Source: Oscillospiraceae bacterium (GTDB taxonomy: Bacteria; Bacillota; Clostridia; Oscillospirales; Ruminococcaceae). Taken from it: 64,000 nt of DNA. Position numbers and translations under genes: made by a program. The notes beneath the pieces were generated by a model. That model made no database searches. It saw nothing but the letters and a program-made list of their open reading frames with translations, and had not been told where the DNA came from. Where the stretch lies: NCBI GenBank assembly GCA_009783205.1, contig WRHO01000001.1:151530-215529 (forward strand), in the 5' to 3' direction. Below, in pieces: positions 51,377 through 55,373 of this stretch; position 1 is the first letter of the stretch, and each line of letters starts with the position of its first letter.

Positions 51377-51637
51377 ATGCCTAATATAAGACCGAGCGCA
51401 TATTTACAGAATAACTATAATGAAATTTCTGAGTTTTGTCATTCAAAAATGGAACCCATTTTTATCACAAAAAACGGGCATAATGATTTAGCTGTTATGA
51501 GTATTGAAGCCTATGAGAAGTTTTGTGGACGATATGAGCTATATAATCTAATTGAAGAAGGACTCGAAGCAGAAAGAAATGGTGATTTTAGCGATATTAA
51601 TGAATTTTTTTCTGAATTTATAAGGGAAATTAAATAG
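51377..51637 (+). CDS. type II antitoxin, Phd/YefM family
   Basis: EPIFITKNGHNDLAVMSIEAYEK. Confidence 0.85.
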   Translation: MPNIRPSAYLQNNYNEISEFCHSKMEPIFITKNGHNDLAVMSIEAYEKFCGRYELYNLIEEGLEAERNGDFSDINEFFSEFIREIK

Positions 51638-51642
51638 AATAA

Positions 51643-51978
51643 ATGAATTATAATATACGAATTATGTCCCCCGCAAAAAAAGATATAAGAGAAATTCATC
51701 GTTATATATCCGAGGAATACTGTAATTCAACCGCCGCAACGCGGCGTGTTATTCTGATTTATAATAAAATACAATCACTTAGCCAAAACCCCGCTCGTTT
51801 TCCTCTTGTGCAAGATGATTTTTTATCGGCAAAAGGAATTAGAGTTACTTCAGCCGAAACACAAAAGATATTTTACATTATCCGCGAAGAGATAAAAACC
51901 GTATCTGTTATACGAATTTTACACGGTCGCAGAGATTGGTTGCGTATATTGAAGCAAGATGATGATTATATTGAATAG
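51643..51978 (+). CDS. type II toxin, RelE/ParE family
   Basis: SPAKKDIREIHRYISEEY, VIRILHGRRDWLRIL. Confidence 0.88.
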   Translation: MNYNIRIMSPAKKDIREIHRYISEEYCNSTAATRRVILIYNKIQSLSQNPARFPLVQDDFLSAKGIRVTSAETQKIFYIIREEIKTVSVIRILHGRRDWLRILKQDDDYIE

Positions 51979-55050: not shown

Positions 55051-55080
55051 TTGACAAAGCTACGCATAATGTGATATAAT
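55051..55080 (+). promoter_or_regulatory. promoter of the small hydrophobic peptide transcript
   Basis: TTGACA (55051-55056), 18-bp spacer, TATAAT (55075-55080). Confidence 0.8.
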
Positions 55081-55165
55081 CAACATTGTACAAGGGTATA
55101 CCTTCGCGGTATGCGGTTGGCTGAACTTCTTTCGGGCAAAAGTTCAACGAAAGGAGGTAATGCTC

Positions 55166-55252
55166 ATGGATATGGTAGTAGAATTACTTAAATTATATGT
55201 GCTTCTGCAAATTGTCATAGAAATGAAAAAACAACCGCCTGTCCAAAAGTAG
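55166..55252 (+). CDS. 28-aa hydrophobic peptide MDMVVELLKLYVLLQIVIEMKKQPPVQK, candidate type I toxin-like peptide
   Basis: ATG preceded by AAAGGAGG; strong promoter upstream; stop inside a terminator hairpin. Confidence 0.6.
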   Translation: MDMVVELLKLYVLLQIVIEMKKQPPVQK

Positions 55253-55261
55253 TTGTTTTTT
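55226..55261. terminator. symmetric bidirectional terminator shared by convergent RNAs
   Basis: AAAAAACAAC (55226-55235) / GTTGTTTTTT (55252-55261), perfect 10-bp stem. Confidence 0.8.
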
Positions 55262-55320
55262 CGACTAAATTTTGTTCAGCTAACCGCTTACACGGTATGC
55301 CTTTGTTCGTTTATCCTTGT
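55226..55320 (-). ncRNA. candidate antisense/antitoxin-like small RNA, about 95 nt
   Basis: Minus-strand promoter TTGACT-N17-TACAAT (55350-55355, 55327-55332) reading to the shared terminator. Confidence 0.55.
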
Positions 55321-55321
55321 G

Positions 55322-55344
55322 ATTACATTGTACCACAATGTAAT
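55322..55344. promoter_or_regulatory. operator-like perfect palindrome ATTACATTGT-ACC-ACAATGTAAT
   Basis: 10-bp perfect arms, 3-bp spacer, overlapping promoter elements upstream of uvrB. Confidence 0.6.
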
Positions 55345-55373
55345 ATTTAAGTCAAGCGTTTTTGGAGAAATTT

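Follow-up and report, generated by a model that had tools for sequence, protein, structure and literature searches.

The module of ~300 bases between the DNA-repair genes radC and uvrB in the 64-kb window (the whole stretch of DNA analysed, from a gut-type bacterium) is very probably a type I toxin–antitoxin cassette of the BsrG/SR4 (Hol_Tox) sort; from the sequence, we put the probability of this reading at about 0.84. The reading is carried by the anatomy of the module, its homology to other loci, a leader shared locus by locus between the two predicted RNAs, constraint on the encoded peptide, multi-copy spread, and an empty site in congeners. The module is real, has homologs, and looks mobile or selfish. 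At the sequence level, it is the RNA cassette that is conserved, and type I toxin–antitoxin function is its likely role.

Inspection of the sequence confirms every element named in an earlier note on this DNA: both promoters, the Shine–Dalgarno (SD) sequence, the 28-codon hydrophobic open reading frame (ORF), and the symmetric terminator spanning its stop codon.

55051–55080, plus strand: predicted sigma-70 promoter of the toxin mRNA, TTGACA-N18-TATAAT, 12/12 match to the consensus.
55087–55165, plus strand: predicted 5′ leader of the toxin mRNA, matched by covariance model R1 (55064–55168, E = 1.5e-6), with repeats I1 and I8.
55113–55126, plus strand: conserved GCGGTTGGCTGAAC inside this leader.
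55126–55134 and 55148–55156, plus strand: predicted SD-sequestering arms in the leader.
55150–55157, plus strand: SD sequence AAAGGAGG; AAAGGnGG is nearly invariant across the family, a motif that itself belonged to the pattern that gathered the loci.
55166–55252, plus strand: ORF of the toxin-like peptide, 28 aa, MDMVVELLKLYVLLQIVIEMKKQPPVQK, stop codon TAG; relatives in L403, L401, L411, L418, and L195.
55225–55262, both strands: symmetric hairpin terminator enclosing the peptide stop codon, a perfect 11-bp inverted repeat GAAAAAACAAC/GTTGTTTTTTC, covered by model R2.
55232–55234, plus strand: CAA where ORFs of the family have TAA, TAG, or TGA adjoining CCGCC; the congener L403 has the same CAACCGCC.
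55225–55320, minus strand: predicted antisense RNA (putative antitoxin), ~95 nt, matched by model R2 (55219–55310, E = 1e-5) and sharing the leader.
55274–55287, minus strand: the mRNA leader repeated at the 5′ end of the antisense RNA, GCGGTTAGCTGAAC.
55316–55351 (hairpin) and 55359–55363 (T-run), plus strand: candidate distal terminator of a longer toxin mRNA, weak in that 18 of 200 shuffles fold equally well.
55355–55327, minus strand: predicted sigma-70 promoter of the antisense RNA, TTGACT-N17-TACAAT, 10/12 match.

The symmetric hairpin is the predicted terminator of the antisense RNA, and a role as mRNA terminator is possible. Two further features had gone unmentioned before. An 18-nt inverted repeat (89%; 55109–55126/55274–55291) is common to both RNAs and proves to be the central feature of the module, and a 10-bp palindrome lies in the antisense promoter region (55322–55344). 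We find no support for the palindrome as a repressor operator. Both predicted RNAs are more stable than shuffled sequences (z about −2.6 and −2.7).

Relatives are not found by the most direct searches. BLASTN of the whole module against 299 genomes of the taxonomic family returns mostly chance promoter matches, a start-region pattern finds true copies in the own genome only, and the module DNA gives no match to plasmid and phage records. The entry point is a weak second copy on contig C10 of the own genome, together with Hol_Tox loci. The C10 module shares the SD context and has a hydrophobic ORF of 29 aa that ends in a hairpin at its stop codon, as well as an antisense promoter. Behind it comes another antisense unit, a solitary one, with TTCAGCTAACCGTTTA, close to TTCAGCTAACCGCTTA of the window. 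The solitary unit (G000:C10:21124–21209; L083 5125–5210) has a near-identical promoter, lies directly behind the C10 module, and is without a toxin ORF; it is perhaps a decoy or an extra antitoxin. A leader of this kind is also present at Pfam Hol_Tox loci within the taxonomic family, e.g. GCGGTTGGCCGAAC. A collecting pattern of leader, SD, and start codon (GCGGTTRGC, AAAGGnGGT, ATG), with no ORF requirement, gives 78 viral stretches, about half of which are cassettes with ORFs of 19–36 aa and the same leader on the antisense side.

From the viral and Hol_Tox loci, with the window left out, we built covariance models of the leader (R1) and of the antisense RNA (R2). The best R1 match in the 64 kb is 55064–55168 on the plus strand (E = 1.5e-6; next best 0.89), a test that is partly circular because the collecting pattern fixed GCGGTTRGC and AAAGGnGGT. 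The best R2 match is 55219–55310 on the minus strand (E = 1e-5; next best 0.042), and the antisense RNA took no part in the collecting pattern; the E-values of both models are rough because the calibration was short. Among the loci examined, 73 of 74 R1 matches have a convergent R2 partner at 46–154 nt. A scan of 711 kb of other viral DNA with R2 yields a single site at E < 0.1 (L176), which is probably a true member because it is convergent to a leader-pattern match. L176 (8926–9213) and L181 (818–877) have the same leader with a 48-aa ORF that is not clearly hydrophobic, MGNLLWSFDAKTIAYNFEYG...; at L176 8926–9213, R2 also detects the antisense RNA (E = 1.6e-5).

Promoters alone are weak evidence, because the window contains seven 12/12 sigma-70 promoters and five convergent promoter pairs (each at least 10/12, spaced 200–400 nt). 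Judged from sequence, homology exceeds chance, as R1 and R2, which were trained on other loci, match exactly at the module. The inverted repetition of the leader on the antisense side also exceeds chance. Across the family, a promoter of at least 10/12 occupies the toxin-promoter position in 62.5% of 80 loci, compared with 2.6% of shuffles, and the antisense-promoter position in 81% of loci, compared with 2.5% of shuffles.

The same leader in two convergent RNAs is an inverted repeat in the DNA. In the window, the two leaders align as ACAAGGGTATACCTTCGCGGTATGCGGTTGGCTGAAC / ACAAAGGCATACCGT----GTAAGCGGTTAGCTGAAC (Smith–Waterman score 26–30, 0/300 shuffles), and the window's own antisense leader ranks first of 81 for its sense leader. 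Over all 81 cassettes, the score of the sense leader against its own antisense leader is 1865, and against those of other loci it is 1237 with a standard deviation of 27 (0/5000 permutations, the effective number being smaller as the loci are related). In direct complementarity, the two leaders exceed other loci by only a small margin (21/5000), the antisense leader and the sense terminator arm show no locus-specific pairing, and the sense leader with its own terminator arm gives a weak signal (96/5000). In bsrG/SR4 of SPbeta, the leader is shared likewise (CTGTACATAAAGTTTGCTCACTCAAGGGAGTCTTGCTC / CTGTACAAAAGCTGCCCATCAAAGGGCTTGCTC; score 26, 0/300). We found no description of this sharing in the literature searched, which did not include the main paper on bsrG/SR4 structure.

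Among characterised systems, bsrG/SR4 (Hol_Tox/TxpA type), and not Fst/par, comes closest to the module in layout. Like the module, bsrG/SR4, txpA/RatA, and bsrE/SR5 of B. subtilis (RF01412, PF16935) encode a small membrane peptide with a basic tail, and systems of the bsrG/SR4 type place the SD in a short hairpin and a convergent antisense RNA over the toxin 3′ end. The leader common to mRNA and antisense RNA is a further likeness to bsrG/SR4, but its sequence differs, and R1 and R2 do not find bsrG. SR4 binds the 3′ end of bsrG, prolongs SD sequestration, and brings RNase III decay, and the type I RNAs of B. subtilis have 100–140 bp of complementarity (PMC6562991). An overlap as long as this is a prediction for the window.

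By the tests run, the module lies outside the Hol_Tox peptide family, Rfam BsrG, and Fst/Ldr, and within an RNA-defined sister family, the GCGGTTRGC shared-leader cassettes, of which we found no description in Rfam, Pfam, or the literature searched. The Rfam BsrG covariance model (RF01412) has no match to the window at gathering score; against the Hol_Tox-coding cassettes L121, L084, and L132 it reaches E ~1e-5, below gathering score. The Hol_Tox profile (PF16935) does not match the window peptide at E ≤ 10, a search in which short peptides limit sensitivity. Hol_Tox cassettes of Clostridia and viruses (L084, L089, L092, L121, L132, and others) resemble the window in leader type, in SD context, and in an antisense RNA with the same leader, and most have CCGCC after the stop codon. 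Unlike the window, they encode MVTYE/MSVYE peptides, which have no profile similarity to the ME type. The modules of C. difficile (CD2517.1-RCd8 and others) resemble the family in being clostridial, multi-copy, and prophage-linked, with convergent overlapping RNAs (PMC6563280). The C. difficile type I toxins are 34–53 aa, with no known relation to the window peptide. A distant member outside Clostridia is probable in the Streptococcus satellite phage Javan2 (L450 1185–1474), which has a Hol_Tox-like ORF, the shared leader, and weak but correctly placed matches to R1 (E = 0.16) and R2 (E = 0.035).

The window peptide matches no family in Pfam, NCBIfam, or PHROGs, but it is not an orphan. It belongs to an ME-type class with relatives in the same genus, namely L403 (MEKILYLLTLYLLLQIILEMKNNRPSPK), L401, L411, and L418 (e.g. 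MELIVGFLVLYALLLIIREIKK), and in an Oscillospiraceae MAG (L195, MELIVVFLILYLLYIIIKEIKK). Among the ME-type sequences, pS > pN in 15/15 pairs, although the numbers are small and the pairs not independent. At the sequence level, the peptide is under constraint, with a purifying pattern. In most cassettes, the stop codon directly precedes CCGCC or ACCGCC. The window and L403 have CAACCGCC at this position, and the ORF continues into the hairpin. The C-terminal QPPVQK thus arises because the usual stop TAA before CCGCC became CAA, and the hairpin pairing is retained because the 3′ arm carries the matching G. Clearly distinct types of peptide occur in the family: MVTYE/MSVYE (Hol_Tox), MGNGRW...KAC, MRITLHIG..., and ME(Y/L).... 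The peptides maintain a hydrophobic core and a Lys/Arg tail. As far as their sequences tell, the classes under one RNA frame are strikingly different. Profile–profile comparison (hhalign) finds no similarity between the ME and Hol_Tox types (probability 9%), which is weak evidence of separate origin because the peptides are so short.

The own genome holds at least five cassettes, with convergent R1 and R2 pairs on C1 (the window), C4, C6, C10, and C2:126.7–127.0 kb; the ORF of the last looks broken. A further antisense match lies at C2:141.7 kb, beside a TTG-start peptide. R2 at E ≤ 0.001 finds the cassette in 67 of 199 genomes of the taxonomic family, with up to 21 copies per genome, and at E ≤ 1e-5 in 28 of 399 genomes of the phylum; R1 finds it in 11 of 21 genomes of the genus. 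Cassettes also occur at unrelated loci and, in tandem or multiple copies, on viral contigs. The proposal of a type I toxin–antitoxin-like module with convergent RNAs is thereby supported by a large homologous family of the same layout. In a congener (L414, L421, L424; G133:C1:290978–292598), about five toxin cassettes form a tandem array with a period of ~332 nt, and G159:C22 has a similar array, judged by match spacing.

At the radC–uvrB site, the module is absent from ten congeners in which both genes are adjacent, and seven of the ten have a gap of 17–61 nt. Because the site is empty in congeners, the module was, most simply, gained there. In the closest congener (G304; L429 ~2196–2441), the gap contains a different, MITE-like element, ~200 nt long, whose ends are inverted (AGACCTCTTGCGTAATCA...TGATTACGCAAGAGGTCT); the space between the two genes seems prone to insertions. 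The window also encodes a type II toxin–antitoxin pair (51377–51978), ~3 kb upstream of the module, with a Phd/YefM-like antitoxin (just below the Pfam cut-off) and a ParE/RelE-like toxin (PF05016).

The earlier note had both RNAs ending at one terminator. This fits the predicted antisense RNA, but transcription of the toxin mRNA may continue beyond the shared hairpin and through the antisense gene, towards the weak distal terminator, which would make the overlap much longer than 38 nt. The full-length plus-strand transcript is predicted to close on itself through a 5′–3′ helix between the leader and its inverted copy (z = −6.5, 0/200 shuffles), and the median number of closing pairs across loci is 28 in own transcripts vs 17 in chimeras. 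A hairpin with a T-run lies beyond the antisense promoter in 42% of family loci and 6% of shuffles, which fits an mRNA crossing the antisense gene, as in B. subtilis. The viral loci encoding KAC peptides (L130, L160, L163, L183, L189, L190, and others) have a strong intrinsic terminator on the sense strand that is formed around the antisense −35 box, with TTGACA in or near the loop.

We infer the transcripts, their ends, the toxicity, and the mode of inhibition as follows. The mRNA from one promoter would encode a small, hydrophobic membrane peptide with a lysine tail, and a 5′ hairpin would partly sequester its SD. From the other side, the second promoter would drive an antisense RNA of ~95 nt, with its 3′ end in the hairpin that spans the toxin stop codon. 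Pairing of this RNA with the 3′ part of the mRNA would lead to decay of the RNase III type, keep the SD closed, or both. The shared leader is most likely the 5′ arm of a long-range 5′–3′ helix in the longer toxin mRNA, the 3′ arm being the complement of the antisense leader, and this helix would hold the newly made mRNA in an inactive state until the antisense RNA has bound. If the cassette were lost or antisense synthesis halted, the peptide would be made and the membrane harmed.

A mechanism of the Fst/par kind, in which both RNAs would end at the common terminator and block translation by pairing via terminator loops and repeats, with no longer mRNA, is improbable. The module does share convergent promoters, a bidirectional terminator, and an SD in a 5′ stem with par of pAD1 (PMC7472228), an 8-nt direct repeat CGGTATGC gives complementarity between the leaders, and the leader duplex is slightly better within a locus (21/5000). 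Fst/par has the direct repeats DRa and DRb; at the module there is one 13-nt direct repeat (85%), but the dominant, locus-matched feature is an inverted repeat. The PxxxG motif of Fst/Ldr is absent from the window peptide because it has no Gly. The module is BsrG/SR4-like rather than Fst-like because both RNAs share an inverted leader, as in bsrG/SR4, and a BsrG/SR4-like mechanism is favoured because the 5′–3′ helix and the distal hairpin with T-run fit a long mRNA.

We also consider it unlikely that the two RNAs form a regulatory or structural pair with a non-toxic small ORF, either a housekeeping membrane peptide or antisense control of uvrB. The module's location immediately before uvrB, in the orientation of that gene, would suit such a role, but radC and uvrB are adjacent without the module in congeners, the cassette is found at unrelated loci and, in tandem arrays or several copies, on viral contigs, and the peptides retain their hydrophobic core and Lys/Arg tail. 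Far less probable still, to the point of being negligible, is chance, in the form of promoters arisen by accident around an unused ORF in an AT-rich gap. Convergent promoter pairs are indeed not rare in the window, but the covariance-model matches, the homologous cassettes, and the purifying pattern contradict this explanation.

Type I systems easily escape detection, as their peptides are tiny and drift fast. According to a 2019 review, known type I toxins turned up in hardly any clostridial species when searched for in silico, and validated clostridial knowledge was limited to C. difficile (PMC6563280). The antisense-RNA model finds cassettes in one third of the sampled family genomes and reaches peptides missed by protein searches. 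On roughly even odds, one RNA cassette may be an interchangeable chassis in Clostridia and viruses, into which unrelated membrane peptides (MVTYE/Hol_Tox, ME, KAC, RITLHIG) have been swapped; the ~300-bp unit would spread in multiple copies, and the locus-specific leader would prevent cross-silencing of co-resident copies. The antisense-RNA model makes the role of the shared leader directly testable.
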